From Gracilibacillus orientalis (GTDB taxonomy: Bacteria; Bacillota; Bacilli; Bacillales; Amphibacillaceae): 64,000 nucleotides of DNA. The position numbers and the translations under genes were made by a program. The notes under the pieces are model-generated. The model saw only the letters and a list, made by a program, of their open reading frames with translations. It was not told the DNA's origin and ran no database searches. Each line of letters opens with the position of its first letter. Within the stretch, counting starts at the first letter, position 1. The stretch covers positions 62,001 to 126,000 of the forward strand of contig NZ_FOTR01000002.1 in assembly GCF_900114645.1 (NCBI RefSeq), written 5' to 3'. Shown here one piece after another: positions 5,182-13,963 of the stretch.

Positions 5182-6027
5182 CTACACCCCACTATATGCC
5201 ATAAAACCACCATCGACCGGGATACAAGTACCGGTTACAAAGCCACTTGCTTCCTCATCAACTAGCCATAGCAAAGTTCCTAATAAATCTTCCGGCGAGC
5301 CTAGTCGTCGCATTGGTGTGTGATCAATTATTTTCTGCATACGTGGTGTTGGCGAGCCATCTTCATTGGTTAGAAGAGGTCTGTTCTGATCTGTTAGAAA
5401 GAATCCAGGAGCAATCGCATTGACACGAACATTCGCTTCGGCCATATGAACAGCCAACCATTGCGTAAAGTTGTTGATCGCTGCTTTGGCAGCACTATAT
5501 GCTGGCACCTTAGTCATTGGACTTGGTGCACTCATCGATGAAATGTTAAGAACGGTTGTTTTTCGTTCCATCATCCGTGTAGAGAAGATCTGCGTCGGAA
5601 TTAACGAACCGATAAAATTCAAATTAAATACGGAAGAAAAACCTTCTGTCGTCATATCAAAGAAAGTCCGGATCGAGGGATCTGACATTTCTTCTTTTTT
5701 AAATTTTTCACTTGCAGTAGTTCCATCTGGATGATTACCACCTGCACCATTTATTAGTACGTCACACGCTCCATATTGTTGGAAAACTTTCTTTTCAGCT
5801 GCGAATACCGCATCTCGATCCAGTACATCACAGCCGATCGCCAATGCTTCTCCACCTTGTTCTTTAATATCATCGACTACTTTTTCGGCTTTTTCATAGG
5901 TGCGATTTAATACCGCTACTTTCATCCCTTGGCGTGCTAACTCTTTGGCCATTGCTCCACATAACACACCTCCACCTCCGGTAACTACTGCTACTTTATT
6001 TTTTAAGTTCGAATGGATTGCTAACAT
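5182..6027 (-). CDS. uxuB: D-mannonate oxidoreductase (fructuronate reductase), SDR type
   Basis: Interconverts D-fructuronate and D-mannonate with NAD(H). It is a short-chain dehydrogenase of about 281 aa with a glycine-rich nucleotide loop ([14 protein letters not shown], near residue 15), NGAGGN, a catalytic Y177-x3-K181 in YSAAK and a C-terminal PVDGGF. This is the SDR-type UxuB found in bacilli, unrelated to the long-chain enzyme of E. coli. ATG 6027 is preferred over 6036 because AGGAAAGG lies 8-9 nt upstream of it, while the earlier ATG abuts the SD. It overlaps the uxuA 3' end by 32 bp. SDR class certain; the substrate comes from its place between uxuA and kdgK. Confidence 0.9.
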
Positions 6028-7102
6028 TTGATTCATCCTTTCCTTTGACTAATTGATAGGCATCCCATAATCCCCATATATACATGATGCCAAGTGCTCT
6101 GTCGTAAAGTCCATAACCTGGCCTGCTCTGTTCATCCCAAATATGCCGACCATGGTCCGGTCTTGCGTAGCCATTAAAGTCAATAGACCGATAAGCTCTG
6201 ACAATCTCATCAATACCAATTGAACCCTGATTTGTGCGATGAGATGTCTCAATAAAATCACCGTTTTCAAATAATTTCACATTACGAATATGAGCAAAAT
6301 GAATGCGATCCTGAAACTCATGAATCATCGAGACGATATCATTATCTCTTCGTACCCCTAATGCACCTGAACATAAGGTAATACCATTATATTTGCTTGG
6401 CACCAGGTTCAAAATGTCGCGGAGACGCTGCTGTGTTGTGACAATCCTCGGAAGTCCAAAGATTTCCCATGGTGGATCATCCGGATGAATCGCTAATTTG
6501 ATATCATATTCCTCACATACTGGAATTACTTTTTGTAAAAAGTATCGTAAATGCTCGATTAAATCATCTTCTGTTACATCTAGATATGCTGCAAATAAAT
6601 CCTTCAGTTCCTCTAAACGCTCTGGTTCCCATCCTGGCATGGTATAATCATGATTTGCCGATATTTTTTCGACTAATTCAAGTGGATCCATATCAGTAAC
6701 TTTTGCCTTTTCATAGAAAAGTGCTGTCGATCGATCGGGTAAAGAACCAAATAAATCAGTTCTTACCCAATCAAAAACAGGCATAAAATTATAACAAATC
6801 ACTTTAACATCTACTGACGCTAAATTTTTGATCGTTTCTATATAATTAGTAATATATTGATCGCGATCCGCTCGCCCTAGTTTAATAGATTCATGAATGT
6901 TGACACTCTCCACTACATCTAGATGCAATCCGTAACTCTCTACCTGTTGCTTCACTTCCTGGATACGTGCCTTAGGCCAAATTTCGCCTGGTGGAATATC
7001 ATGCAATGCCCACACAACGCCTTCCACACCGGGAATTTGTTGAATTTGAGATAAGGTTACACTGTCATTTCCTTCTCCAAACCATCGAAATACCATTCGC
7101 AT
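5996..7102 (-). CDS. uxuA: Mannonate dehydratase
   Basis: Dehydrates D-mannonate to 2-keto-3-deoxygluconate in the hexuronate pathway. The 368-aa protein begins [13 protein letters not shown] and carries the family stretches [32 protein letters not shown] (metal and substrate ligands), [11 protein letters not shown] and RPDHGRHIW near the C-terminus. The C-terminal tail runs about 10 codons into uxuB, longer than the family needs. It is 17 bp downstream of aguA and preceded by AAGGGATG. Cytoplasmic. Confidence 0.96.
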
Positions 7103-7119
7103 GTTGTCACATCCCTTCT

Positions 7120-9165
7120 TTAGTAGATGGTTCGTTCATGTTGATCAGAGATACCAGATTTGCGGTAAAAATAGGTATTGATCTGATCACGCCATTCTTT
7201 GGCATTTTCCAGTTGCCGCTCTAAACGAGCCTTTACATTCTCAAAACGATCACTATCAACATGTTTACTTAAACCATTCCATTGATCAATAAGCCATTCT
7301 ACCTGTTCAAAACCTTTGAAATGAGTGTCATAAATATGTTGAATAACCGTCTTCCCACTTTTCAACGTATACTTGTATGGTACATGATGAAAAAATAAAA
7401 GAAGTTCGTCTGGAACTTGTTTTAAATCGTTATAAATGGTTTGATGTGGTTCTTGATATTGTTCGATATAACCGGTTCCTGTCTCTTTCGTACGATCAAC
7501 ACCAATACCATCTCGGTCAGCAAAGTGGTAAGTACCCCATTTGGCATATTCATAACCATCAATGTTAGGTCCGTAATGTACGCCAGGTGTTACCATCCAG
7601 CCTACTCCAAGTGGTGCGGTATAATTTTCATAGATTTCCCAAGCGTTTAATAGCATATCTTCTATTGTGTTTAGTACTTTTTCGTCCATACCAAATGTCT
7701 GTTCAATCCATTCCTGCGCTATTTGTTCTGATGATAACGATGGATTCCAGATCAAACGCCCATACCCGTAGAGGTTGGCTTGTGCTAATGTATTGCCTGT
7801 CCAGTTACCATCATCACCAATGTTAGAAACCGCTGCTATCCCACTGTATTTATAATGATGAATATTCCCAGCTACAATTTCTTCTATTGATGTACCTTCT
7901 CCCTTTAGATACGTATCGAAGGCAAGGACTTCCTTCCATTGTGGAATTAAATAACATAAATCTATTTGTTGCCCGGTATACTCTTGTGCTACCTGAAATT
8001 CGATCATTTGATTCGTATGCGGCATGGCACCCATTAATGGTGATACAGGCTCTCGCACTTGAAAATCCATCGGACCGTTCTTCACTTGTAAAATCACATT
8101 TTCATGGAACCGTCCATCCAATGGTTTAAAGTGATCATAAGCTGCTCTTGCCCGATCTGTTGATCGATCACGCCAATCTTGTAAGTGGTTATACACAAAA
8201 CAGCGCCAGATCACTTTACCTTGAAATGGTTCTAATGCTTCTGCTAACATATTCGAACCATCGGCATGATCACGATCATATGTAAAAGGACCTGGTCTGT
8301 TTTCTGAATCGGCCTTAACTACAAAACCACCAAAGTCAGGAATGTAATCATAGATTTCTTTTGCTTTTTCCTTCCACCAATTTTTCACATCCTCTTCAAA
8401 TGGATCTGCTGTATGTAAATCTCCAATTGTTATCGGACTGGCAAAATTGATACTCAAATAAAGCGTGATACCATATGCACGGAAAATACCAGCTATCGCT
8501 TGTATTTCAGGAAGGTATTTTTTCGTAATAAAAAAGGTTTCCTCTTCCCAAACATTTACATTATTTATCGAAATCGCATTGATACCAACCGAAGATAAGA
8601 ATCTCGCATAATCTTTGATTCTCGTTTTGTCTTCGACGAATTGATTATATTGATAGAAAATCGACCGACCTGAATAACCTCTCTCAATACTGCCATCAAA
8701 ATTATCCCACTGATTCAACATACGAAATTGATTTTTTGGCTGTTCAACTACACTTAATCGTGTGATATCTTCATGAAGTTGCATCCGTCTTAACAAATGG
8801 TGTACCCCATACAACACGGCGACATCAGAATTACCAGCAATGATTAATTGCTTTTCATTTGACACAATGAGGAAGCCTTCATCACTTATATCTGCTAATT
8901 TTGATTGCTGATTGTCATCTAAAAGTTGTGCGAGATCACTTTTGTTACCGATTACAATTTTACTATTATTTATATCTTCAGTAATAGTTAAATCCATGTC
9001 GAGCATTTGTGGTACAGCTGTATGTACTTCATCTTTTGCAGCCTGTACTTGCAACCCCTCACTTAACACACAAACGTGATCAAACAAATGTTGGTATTGC
9101 TCTTTCGTTTTACTGTCTGTTATCGGCTGATACTGTAACCACATATTATATTTTTTGCTATTCAT
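7120..9165 (-). CDS. aguA: GH67 alpha-glucuronidase
   Basis: Removes (4-O-methyl)glucuronic acid from the non-reducing end of aldouronic acids made from glucuronoxylan. The 681-aa length is standard for GH67. Visible family stretches include [35 protein letters not shown] (catalytic acid region), [32 protein letters not shown] (the D/E general base region is just after) and the C-terminal [12 protein letters not shown]. No signal peptide, so it is intracellular. It is the first enzyme gene of the operon, 17 bp after the GntR regulator and with a strong GGAAGGAGAA SD. The aldouronate importer is not next to it, unlike in several other bacilli. Confidence 0.96.
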
Positions 9166-9182: not shown

Positions 9183-9860
9183 TTATACAAAAAACTCAGG
9201 ATTTTGATCTTTGAGCTGATCTTTTTCAATTTCAACTAGCTGTAAATGTTCCATTGCTGCCGTCTCAGCTCTTTCTAGATCTCTATCAGATATTGCTTCA
9301 AAAATATTGCGGTGCTGGGCCACAATGATCTTCCAATCATGATTTACAGAAAGACGTAGTAAGCGTAAACGGTCAAATTGAACATTCATTCGCTTGACCA
9401 TATGCCACGTTCTATGTTTACCACACCCTCTATACATTAACTGATGGAAATCATCATCCAATTCAAATAAGCGTTGATAGGAGCCTTTTTCTAATGAAAA
9501 TTCTTGTAGTGTTAAATTAGATTCCATTTGCAATAAATCTTCTTTTCCAATTGTTTCAGCTGCTTCTCTTACAATTGCTTTTTCAATATTTTCTCTGACA
9601 AATCTCCCTTCCTCAACTAATGCTAGGTCAATTTTAGTCACAATAGTACCAATTTGAGGATAAACACCTAACAATTCTTCTTGATTTAATTGTAGAAAAG
9701 CTTCTCTTACTGGTGTTCTGCTTACATTTAGCTTATCAGATATTTCCTTCTCAGATAGCTTTGTTCCCGGGGCGATCTCCCCATTCATAATTTGCGTTTT
9801 GATCGTGTTATACACATGATCTCGTGACGATCCTCTTGTTCTTTGTTCTTGAGGGGCCAT
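9183..9860 (-). CDS. GntR/FadR-subfamily regulator of the glucuronoxylan operon
   Basis: 225 aa. The N-terminal winged helix (about 10-75: [36 protein letters not shown]) is a textbook GntR DNA-binding domain. The rest is an alpha-helical FCD ligand domain with conserved acidic and His residues ([19 protein letters not shown]). It is the promoter-proximal gene, so the operon is probably autoregulated. A 10-bp palindrome, ATACTAGTAT, lies between its promoter and its ATG and is a likely operator. The ligand would be a hexuronate intermediate, as for the UxuR/KdgR-type FCD regulators; that is inference. Likely a repressor. Confidence 0.88.
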
Positions 9861-10422: not shown

Positions 10423-10540
10423 TTAAATCACCCATTTTTTATAATTTAGTATGCCTTAAAAAAACCTTTATTTAAGCATATTCGCCATCATCAAATTTAG
10501 TATTGACATTATTTATGAATAAAATAGTTCTATATACCTA

Positions 10541-10582
10541 TTGTAATCGCTTACCAAATTTTATATAATGAAATCGGTTACA
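10541..10582 (+). promoter_or_regulatory. Promoter flanked by two cre sites (small RNA)
   Basis: -35-like TTGTAA (10541-10546), 17-nt spacer, -10 TATAAT (10564-10569). Two sequences fit the CcpA cre consensus TGWNANCGNTNWCA: TGTAATCGCTTACC at 10542-10555 (13 of 14, over the -35) and TGAAATCGGTTACA at 10569-10582 (14 of 14, over the start site). Binding at these positions would be expected to repress. Another LacI-family protein could use them. Confidence 0.72.
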
Positions 10583-10634
10583 ATAATAGTTGTTGTGTAC
10601 ATATACTGTTCACATCTTTCTGAGGTGTGGATAC

Positions 10635-10691
10635 ATGTACAGTATTTTGAATCAAAATAGATTGTCCCCCTTTGCATCCTATTTTTTATAG
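10635..10691 (+). CDS. 18-codon small ORF inside the small RNA
   Basis: ATG at 10635 with GAGGTG (10622-10627) seven nt upstream encodes MYSILNQNRLSPFASYFL and stops with TAG at 10689-10691, inside the right arm of the terminator. The SD and start codon fall in the RNA stems described above, so translation could be structure-controlled. It has no recognisable family. It might be a leader peptide, a small functional peptide like SR1P, or chance. Confidence 0.3.
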   Translation: MYSILNQNRLSPFASYFL

Positions 10692-10704
10692 GGTGCCTTT
10701 TTTT
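10674..10704 (+). terminator. Intrinsic terminator of the small RNA
   Basis: Stem GCATCCTA (10674-10681) pairs with TAGGGTGC (10689-10696) with one G-U pair and a 7-nt loop, followed by CC and a run of seven T. Confidence 0.75.
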
Positions 10705-10890
10705 GTCAAAGAAGGAAAATTCATTTTTATCGACCCTTATTACTTCTTAAGACGCTTTGACCAGAACGACTTCTTTTAACAGTTATCTGAATTGATTTTT
10801 CAAAATAAGACTTTTCAAAGGAAATTAGATGTTTAACAAGGAGTATATGCAGTGATTGTAGAAATTAATAGTAACTAGGAGGTGATAAGA

Positions 10891-12279: not shown

Positions 12280-12807
12280 TTAGTGTGTTTCTGCTGGCTT
12301 AATAAACCTATCTTCATTTTGGTGGAAAACTTTTTCTTTAATGAATGGAATAACATATCTGTCTAATCCAAATCTTCCCGCGTTATAGCCTGCTACAAGT
12401 AAGAATAAGGTGAGTAATATCATTTGAGCATTTGTGCTGATTGTGCCACTGAACAAGAATGCGAAGTTCATCATGATTCCCATTAATGCTGCAAAGTTAG
12501 TAAATAAACCTAGAATTAACGCGATACCAACTAGAAATTCCCCCCACATGACGAGGAATGTAAATATATCTGCTCCAGGAATTGCAACTGCTTCTAAAAA
12601 TACTGCCCACCATCCTTGAACAGTTGGATTCTCACCACTTGCATTTGCTACAGCTCCTTGCAAAAAACCACTTGCATCAAATTCCCCACCAGTAATTTTA
12701 CCCCAGCCACCTGTCATCCATTGATACCCGAGATAGACTCTAATGAAAGTTAATATTCCGGCTACTAATTTATTATTTCTTAATAAGTTTACAAACATTT
12801 CATCCAC
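12280..12807 (-). CDS. DoxX-family membrane protein
   Basis: 175 aa with four hydrophobic segments (about 15-33, 68-90, 93-115, 122-142) and the DoxX opening FIRVYLGYQWMTGGWGKITGG. DoxX proteins are small quinone-linked or redox-stress membrane proteins; some are subunits of thiosulfate:quinone oxidoreductase, and others are of unknown role in thiol-stress loci. No partner subunit is adjacent. The gene is monocistronic with its own terminator. The C-terminal tail is hydrophilic (FIKEKVFHQNEDRFIKPAETH). Confidence 0.87.
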   Translation of the reverse strand: MDEMFVNLLRNNKLVAGILTFIRVYLGYQWMTGGWGKITGGEFDASGFLQGAVANASGENPTVQGWWAVFLEAVAIPGADIFTFLVMWGEFLVGIALILGLFTNFAALMGIMMNFAFLFSGTISTNAQMILLTLFLLVAGYNAGRFGLDRYVIPFIKEKVFHQNEDRFIKPAETH

Positions 12808-13042
12808 TCCTTTTATTGTTCAATACTTCACATTAAATAGTGTTTTGTTATCCTTATTACACTTAAATCATAACATATTTAAATTTTTATTCAATATCTT
12901 TGTTCATCATTTCACATTATAGACAAACCATTGTGTCAAAGTTGTGACATTGCATCCTTTTTGAGTTATGCTAAAGATACATGCTTTCATTATCAAGGGC
13001 AAAACTATAATTTATATCCAAAAAAGAGATGAGGTGCAGAGA

Positions 13043-13963
13043 ATGAAATATCGTCGACTCGGAAAAACAAATTTAGATGTTTCGGTTGTAGGGATAGGCA
13101 CTTGGCAATTCGGTGGTGAATGGGGAAAAGACTTTACTCAAGCGGAAGTTGATCAAATTCTCGATCAGGCTAAACAAGAAGGAATCAACCTGATTGACAC
13201 TGCTGAATGCTATGGTGATCATCTATCCGAACAATTTATTGGAGATTATTTGCGTAGAAAAAATCGTGAAGATTGGATTGTTGCAACCAAATTCGGCCAC
13301 CATTTCCATCGTAATTTTGAACGGACGCGCCAATGGTCTGCTGAAGATGTGTTAAAACAATTAGATGATTCCTTGAGGTCTTTAAAAACGGATTACATCG
13401 ATGTTTATCAAGCCCATTCTTGTACTGATGAAGAATTTAACAATGATGATTTATGGACAATGCTGGATAAACAGAAACAGGCGGGTAAAATATGACACTT
13501 GGCAGTTTCATTAGCAGGAAATGAAGATAACTATCAGACTGATAAAGCAACAGAGGTCGGAGCTGAAGCGATTCAAGTTGTTTATAATCGTCTAGACCGT
13601 GCTCCAGAAGAGAAGATATATCCTTCCACCCTCAAACAGGATATGGGCGTTTTGGCGCGAGTTCCTTTAGCTAGTGGTTATTTAAGTGGTAAATATAAAC
13701 CAGGGTCTACATTTGATCAAAATGATGTACGTTCCAGACACGATAGCGAAAAAACAGACCGCTTACTAAGAATGGTAGAAGAAATTGCACGTCATGAAGT
13801 TCCTGAAGGGATAAATATGGCAAGTTGGGCGCTTGCTTGGTGTTTAAAGCATGATGCAGTAACAACCGTTATACCTGGTTGTAAAAATCCGGAACAAGTC
13901 ATTTCTAATGCGAGAGCAGCTGATTTAGAAATTGTTTCTGAAAATCATCCACAAGCAAGATAA
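13043..13963 (+). pseudogene. Aldo/keto reductase interrupted by an in-frame TGA
   Basis: Starting at ATG 13043 (GAGGTGCAGAG upstream), the frame encodes an AKR barrel: YRRLGKTNLDVSVVGIGTWQFGGEWG, the catalytic Asp/Tyr region NLIDTAECYGDH, the lysine in ATKFGHHFH, and the His-containing YIDVYQAHS. A TGA at 13493-13495 stops it after QKQAGKI. The same frame continues at once with HLAVSLAGNEDNYQ, then QVVYNRLD, GVLARVPLASGYLSGKYK and a C-terminal VIPGCKNPEQV, ending at 13963. The expected residue at the stop is Arg (CGA), so one C-to-T change explains it. Together the halves make a normal ~306-aa reductase. Recent nonsense mutation, sequencing error or programmed readthrough are the options, in that order. 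Confidence 0.85.

Follow-up and report, generated by a model that had tools for sequence, protein, structure and literature searches.

A conserved small RNA family with cre sites and a C-rich segment in Gracilibacillus and its relatives, putatively directed at Shine-Dalgarno sequences

The window analysed here, a 64,000-nt stretch of the genome of the salt-tolerant soil bacterium Gracilibacillus orientalis, holds a unit of about 125 nt made up of a promoter, two cre sites and an intrinsic terminator, which belongs to a family of small RNA (sRNA) genes that is uncatalogued in Rfam. Across this family the promoter/cre/terminator architecture, a C-rich seed and the RNA structure are conserved and no open reading frame is, while RoxS-like genes are found elsewhere in the nine genomes re-searched for them. 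Based on these comparisons, the RNA is probably a CcpA-repressed, trans-acting, non-coding sRNA that occludes G-rich Shine-Dalgarno (SD) sequences through its C-rich segment. The unit is flanked by a gene for a 161-aa protein without a Pfam match and by a VOC (glyoxalase-fold) gene, and comprises the following features, numbered by position in the window.

10525-10539, + strand: degenerate form of a palindrome-like element (approximately GGWCTTTAGWCC in many relatives), adjoining the -35 box upstream at a spacing fixed across the family; a possible activator site
10541-10546, + strand: -35 box TTGTAA, its position kept in the family as WTGWAA
10542-10555, + strand: upstream cre, 13/14, over the -35 box (pattern match and family comparison)
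10564-10569, + strand: -10 box TATAAT (promoter search and family comparison)
10569-10582, + strand: cre, 14/14 to TGWNANCGNTNWCA, over the predicted transcription start (exact pattern match)
10577-10704, + strand: predicted sRNA, its start placed by the -10 box
10596-10602, + strand: 5' arm of stem A, partner 10635-10641 (pairing comparison)
10603-10609, + strand: 5' arm of stem B, partner 10639-10645 (pairing comparison; two pairs with compensatory change)
10607-10633, + strand: apical hairpin with compensatory changes, 49% identical within Gracilibacillus
10635-10641, + strand: 3' arm of stem A, of which 10639-10641 is common to stem B
10635-10691, + strand: 18-codon frame, judged non-coding, its end falling inside the terminator
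10639-10645, + strand: 3' arm of stem B
10660-10674, + strand: C-rich seed GATTGTCCCCCTTTG, recognised by conservation
10674-10704, + strand: intrinsic terminator with stem 10674-10696 and T-run 10698-10704 (search; compensatory changes)

A first-pass annotation of this DNA had described a promoter with one cre match over the -35 box (13/14) and another over the start (14/14), an intrinsic terminator behind it, and two mutually exclusive stems sharing 10639-10641. All of these were recovered, the promoter being of the sigma-A type (TTGTAA-17-TATAAT, 10541-10569), and the invariant C-rich stretch at 10660-10674 was absent from that annotation. Exact matches to TGWNANCGNTNWCA number two in the 64-kb window versus 0.28 expected, a count reached by 4 of 100 shuffles; the other one lies at 8943-8956, inside a 681-aa frame (7120-9165). 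By count alone, neither promoter matches (10 versus a mean of 9.0) nor terminator matches (2 versus 1.2) exceed those in shuffles, and it is because of its conservation that the unit as a whole stands above chance. Further sites of the GGWCTTTAGWCC type did not exceed the control in 16 genomes (47 matches, nine of them the RNA's own promoters, versus 56 for the reversed pattern).

With the 183-bp region as query, one full copy was detected in 16 of 17 Gracilibacillus genomes, including 15 of 15 high-quality ones; the genome without a copy (G008) is 73% complete, and one other (G016) has an additional 28-nt match to the terminator. No Rfam family was found for the RNA, and a DNA search together with a custom model (R1) placed the sRNA in at least 42 of 159 genomes of the bacterial family. 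The DNA search matched 34 of the 159, three of them (G077, G143 and G019) over the promoter only; an R1 search of 40 family genomes confirmed G019 and added G020, G024, G026, G032, G038, G039, G040, G061 and G106; and G025 came from an R1 search that covered 397 genomes of the order and thereby part of this family. A misaligned terminator left R1 without base pairs, making it a sequence model. Beyond the family, no R1 match reached 24 bits among the 397 genomes of that search. Eleven weak matches beyond the family were judged by eye, most being unlike the sRNA; in three below 24 bits (L286, L292 and L304) a hairpin comes after ATTTTCCCCCTTTT, and these may represent either different C-rich sRNAs or ordinary terminators. 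A scan of 84,980 species for the seed-terminator pattern returned 30 stretches, 29 of them in related genera (Gracilibacillus, Aquibacillus, Amphibacillus, Halolactibacillus, Paraliobacillus and Saliterribacillus) or a Bacilli MAG. The remaining stretch, from a Nitratireductor MAG, was taken as a chance match, showing by eye no cre and no T-run. At both gathering and permissive thresholds, no Rfam family lay over the RNA itself in the window, and likewise in 16 relatives.

Conservation is confined to the unit, with an RNA core 95-98% identical among the 16 Gracilibacillus sequences and flanks only 24-44% identical. Mean pairwise identity in these 16 rows is 0.44 upstream, 0.79 in the promoter, 0.90 in the leader and 0.95 in GTGTACATATACTGTTC, then 0.49 in the apical hairpin, 0.98 from ATGTACAGTAT through CCCCCTTT, 0.73 in the terminator and 0.24 downstream. 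The invariant part, GAUUGUCCCCC, lies immediately 5' of the terminator. Within it, GATTGTCCCCC is present in 36 of 36 aligned and 42 of 42 distinct members, an invariance that is partly built in because part of the member set was picked by this motif, the members from the DNA search and the R1 model not having been selected by it. Conservation of the cre matches, raised as a check in the first pass, was borne out at the start site, where 39 of the 42 distinct members have a 14/14 match (13/14 in L012 and L026, 10/14 in L015). The upstream cre reaches 12/14 or better in every one of the 16 Gracilibacillus and in five members outside the genus (L019, L020, L022, L026 and L040), and is degenerate in the others; in the rows of L012, L014 and L015 it is the best-scoring site.

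The RNA is also predicted to be stably folded, at -34.4 kcal/mol with a z-score of -4.19 (0 of 200 dinucleotide shuffles as good), and 11 members folded gave z-scores between -2.0 and -5.4. RNAalifold drew 37 pairs from the 16 genus sequences, seven of them with two-sided changes (three in the apical hairpin, four in the terminator). Stems A (10596-10602/10635-10641) and B (10603-10609/10639-10645) are each paired in most of 21 members compared. For stem B, compensatory change occurs in two pairs, which 2 of 500 shuffles reach, and 98.6% of cells are paired; its further pair types are reached by 49 of 500 shuffles, leaving two events as the compensatory evidence. Stem A, lacking any two-sided change, does not differ from its shuffles and offers covariation nothing to test; thermodynamically, A is favoured over B (-35.2 versus -31.9 kcal/mol, with pair probabilities up to 0.93 versus 0.01). 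In Amphibacillus-like members the stems differ in sequence. Across 34 members (L037 and L055 left out), the mean predicted unpaired fraction is 0.61 for UCCCCC, 0.37 for the adjoining GAUUG and 0.38 for the whole RNA, and in the best A-form fold, as in folds of several relatives, the 5'-end ACAAU pairs with AUUGU of the seed.

From this arrangement we infer that the RNA is transcribed, that CcpA binds its promoter, in which direction it is regulated, and that it pairs with SDs in a set of targets headed by acs1. In the presence of a preferred sugar, CcpA occupying the start-site cre, together with the one over the -35 box, would block transcription, and in its absence the sRNA would be transcribed. 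The C-rich segment GAUUGUCCCCCUU, which lies between the 5' structured domain and the terminator hairpin, would then pair with G-rich SDs of the type AAGGGGGAYAAUC-AUG and block translation, a mode of action like that of RoxS/RsaE and FsrA but under CcpA control. Were a target itself catabolite-repressed, which is a guess, the circuit would form an incoherent loop.

Among possible targets, the acyl-CoA synthetase gene acs1 appears the best candidate. In 17 genomes, the reverse complement of the seed with up to two mismatches gave 114 sites, 16 of them the RNA gene (98 non-self), versus 76 for the reversed pattern. The motif AAGGGGGA-N4-8-ATG showed no genome-wide excess, at 39.2 sites per genome in the genus versus 53.6 in 17 sRNA-negative genomes (667 versus 911), sRNA-negative meaning without a seed-holding match in the family DNA search (eight of the 17 were also searched with R1, of which G083 gave a weak 18.9-bit match). 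The pattern AAGGGGGAYAAN1-7ATG yielded 69 sites in 19 of 20 sRNA-positive genomes versus 11 for its reverse, as expected of an SD-like pattern. Genes recurring behind it include acs1 (four genomes, two genera), an antiporter-like gene (three), a gene for a PhnD-like binding protein (three) and others; names other than acs1, which has AMP-binding domains, are readings of the protein sequences.

In acs1-like ribosome-binding sites (RBSs), a five-G run is present in 20 of 26 sRNA-positive versus 4 of 23 sRNA-negative genomes (49 copies), the six positive exceptions being G005, G013, G018, G038, G109 and G126, and the mean seed duplex energy is -17.6 versus -11.9 kcal/mol; this comparison is biased, the gene having been chosen from the pattern search, the genomes being related and the start codons picked automatically. 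Up to 14 consecutive pairs form between seed and acs1 RBS (G006, G009). A C-rich piece of RoxS placed on the acs1 RBSs also pairs better in sRNA-positive genomes (-14.5 versus -10.2). A 30-locus comparison gave the G-run in 13 of 15 versus 5 of 15 and duplexes of -19.2 versus -12.0 kcal/mol (17 versus 13 loci, G025 and G026 counted as sRNA-positive), a difference weakened on adding 19 acs1 copies (nine sRNA-positive, ten sRNA-negative), some of them about 60% identical and perhaps not orthologous. The gene is seemingly missing in 6 of 17 Gracilibacillus genomes (G001, G004, G008, G010, G015 and G016, where the best match is at the level of the paralogue), and no acs1 match passed E 1e-150 in the sRNA-positive genomes G019-G022 and G105-G108. 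On this account acs1 is not the family-wide target.

The acsA paralogue, about 57% identical, was considered as a target and rejected, with no five-G run within 40 nt upstream of its start in 19 of 19 sRNA-positive genomes. Of 19 genomes, 13 (L260, L262-L264, L267, L268 and L270-L276) carry cre-like sites in the 80 nt preceding the acsA start, the window genome's own copy (L258) having none. By eye, an ABC-ATPase-like frame ends just 5' of acs1 in the window's genome.

That matching RBSs show no genome-wide enrichment would suit a conserved sRNA whose C-rich element bound a protein or other RNA regions instead of SDs, with stems A and B possibly forming a switch, as the pairing of both exclusive stems in most members might suggest. 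We regard this as unlikely, given the complementarity of acs1 RBSs to the seed and a seed whose form and position resemble those of known C-rich SD-binding sRNAs.

Several such sRNAs invite comparison. RsaI of Staphylococcus aureus is described in part of one report as CcpA-repressed and as pairing at SDs to repress translation (PMC9266662), and passages of another give it a C-rich region for mRNA targets along with G-rich regions, interactions with RsaD, RsaE and RsaG, and conservation in Staphylococcus, not Bacilli (PMC8216469). The RNA described here is similar in its C-rich region and in a conserved cre that would place it, like RsaI, under CcpA, but it lacks the G-rich part and has no Rfam match. 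FsrA and CsfG, C-rich sRNAs of B. subtilis according to the same passages, are controlled by Fur and by sigma-F/G, respectively (PMC8216469); a C-rich region is conserved here too, whereas their control differs from that predicted for this RNA and no Rfam family matches it at cut-off. SR1 is presented in sections of a further paper as a trans-acting sRNA of 205 nt, controlled by CcpN and CcpA, that encodes the 39-aa SR1P and whose promoter is preceded by a cre at a distance of some 260 bp (PMC8464778). The first-pass view that the RNA is not recognisably homologous with SR1 agrees with our search, in which SR1 (RF02376) gave no Rfam match over the RNA, and unlike SR1 it has no conserved small-protein ORF. 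We found no sRNA study for this halophilic lineage (Gracilibacillus, Amphibacillus) in the openly accessible literature, which leaves room for an earlier publication on the RNA.

RoxS itself, 115 nt long and controlled by ResD and Rex according to part of PMC8464778, has likely counterparts in the same bacteria, as its model (RF01820, RoxS/RsaE) gave matches in 142 of 159 family genomes, the window's own included, all below cut-off. The RoxS-like gene was on a different contig from the sRNA in 9 of 9 genomes re-searched, again including the window's own, and the eleven RoxS-like sequences that we looked at hold ACCCCTTTGTTTGA. The RF01820 model did not match this sRNA up to E 10. Both RNAs have a C-rich pairing region and both contain CCCCUUUG / CCCCTTTG, but RoxS has several C-rich regions and this RNA one.

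A more elaborate reading, which we put forward as speculative and rather improbable, makes the RNA a partner of RoxS that answers to CcpA and carries its own switch. The CCCCUUUG that its seed has in common with RoxS would let glucose status (through CcpA) and redox status (through RoxS) converge on some of the same SDs; the seed would be masked by the RNA's own 5' end (the transcribed half of the cre, ACAAU with AUUGU), with stems A and B setting its opening. If true, a single element would serve as both repressor operator and seed lock. The main reading, CcpA-repressed occlusion of SDs, would for its part place a C-rich, RoxS-like sRNA of a halophilic lineage under catabolite control, beyond the Staphylococcus case, and would suggest that CcpA came to govern C-rich or RoxS-linked sRNAs along unrelated routes (RsaI, RosA and this RNA).

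Returning to SD occlusion in trans, a cis-acting role as leader or attenuator of a downstream gene is very unlikely by comparison with the neighbourhoods of other members, whether for the VOC gene in the window, as the first pass had offered, or ancestrally for an aldo/keto reductase gene. The latter is the next same-strand ORF, 42-280 nt past the RNA's T-run, in 12 of 36 loci; in the window, however, it begins 2.3 kb from the RNA, and downstream of the RNA, 12 of 16 Gracilibacillus 3-kb loci have an opposite-strand ORF of the DoxX type (12280-12807 in the window). When the two nearest ORFs per side were compared in the other 35 loci, the VOC gene had no BLASTP homologue (1e-8) among them although RNA and terminator are retained there, leaving the attenuator proposal unsupported; in 6 of these 35, the opposite strand upstream encodes a different protein read as VOC-like (cluster F5). 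The neighbouring ORFs indicate vertical inheritance near the aldo/keto reductase gene and, in many loci, the DoxX-type gene.

Within the window, the aldo/keto reductase gene (12968-13963) is split by an in-frame TGA at 13493-13495, through which the longest neighbouring copies in relatives read. A GntR/FCD regulator gene, whose homologues precede the sRNA in 14 of 16 Gracilibacillus loci, lies at 9183-9860, and the ORFs beside it at 5182-9165 are read as a glucuronate degradation cluster.

RosA of B. subtilis is, according to passages of PMC8216469, CcpA-repressed with a cre over its start (-1 to +12), and this start-overlapping cre, together with RoxS-like genes in the same genomes, would suit a RoxS sponge. 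RosA is G-rich, however, and sequesters RoxS and FsrA, whereas the present RNA is C-rich without conserved G-runs (a GGG run precedes the seed in 4 of 36 members and GGGG in none) and, in each of nine genomes, its predicted pairing with the RoxS of that genome does not improve on shuffles (z -0.71 to +1.89), making a sponge highly improbable.

An equally slim chance attaches to the RNA being dual-function in the manner of SR1, base-pairing and also encoding an 18-residue peptide. The 18-codon frame noted in the first pass is present in the window (10635-10691), preceded by an SD-like GAGGTG and opening on an in-frame ATG, and its first 14 codons are alike in most members of the genus. It is nonetheless without a stop before the terminator's end in 11 of 16 Gracilibacillus species, and its ATG is replaced by TTG or GTG in 2 of 16, an insertion of 1 nt in the C-run being present in one of these two as well. 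Among 20 members outside the genus, two (L018, L020) have a frame running through the seed that starts with ATG and stops within the RNA, and 4 more have one that starts with GTG or TTG, whereas 11 lack any in-frame start codon. No synonymous signal is seen at the codon positions, whose comparison had been suggested, as the region is nearly invariant in nucleotides. On the sequence evidence, no ORF is conserved in the sRNA and the frame is not kept as a gene. The earlier proposal of a catabolite-controlled, dual-function RNA thus holds for a stand-alone, structured sRNA gene with a conserved cre, and its peptide half is unsupported.

The promoter region also draws a sub-cut-off Rfam match to malK-II (RF03008) at 10534-10580, scoring 30.3 bits versus a cut-off of 52.9 and covering the promoter, the cre and the first nucleotides only. 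As the RF03008 consensus has TATAAT between inverted half-sites, we would guess that this Rfam family may be promoter/operator DNA rather than RNA.
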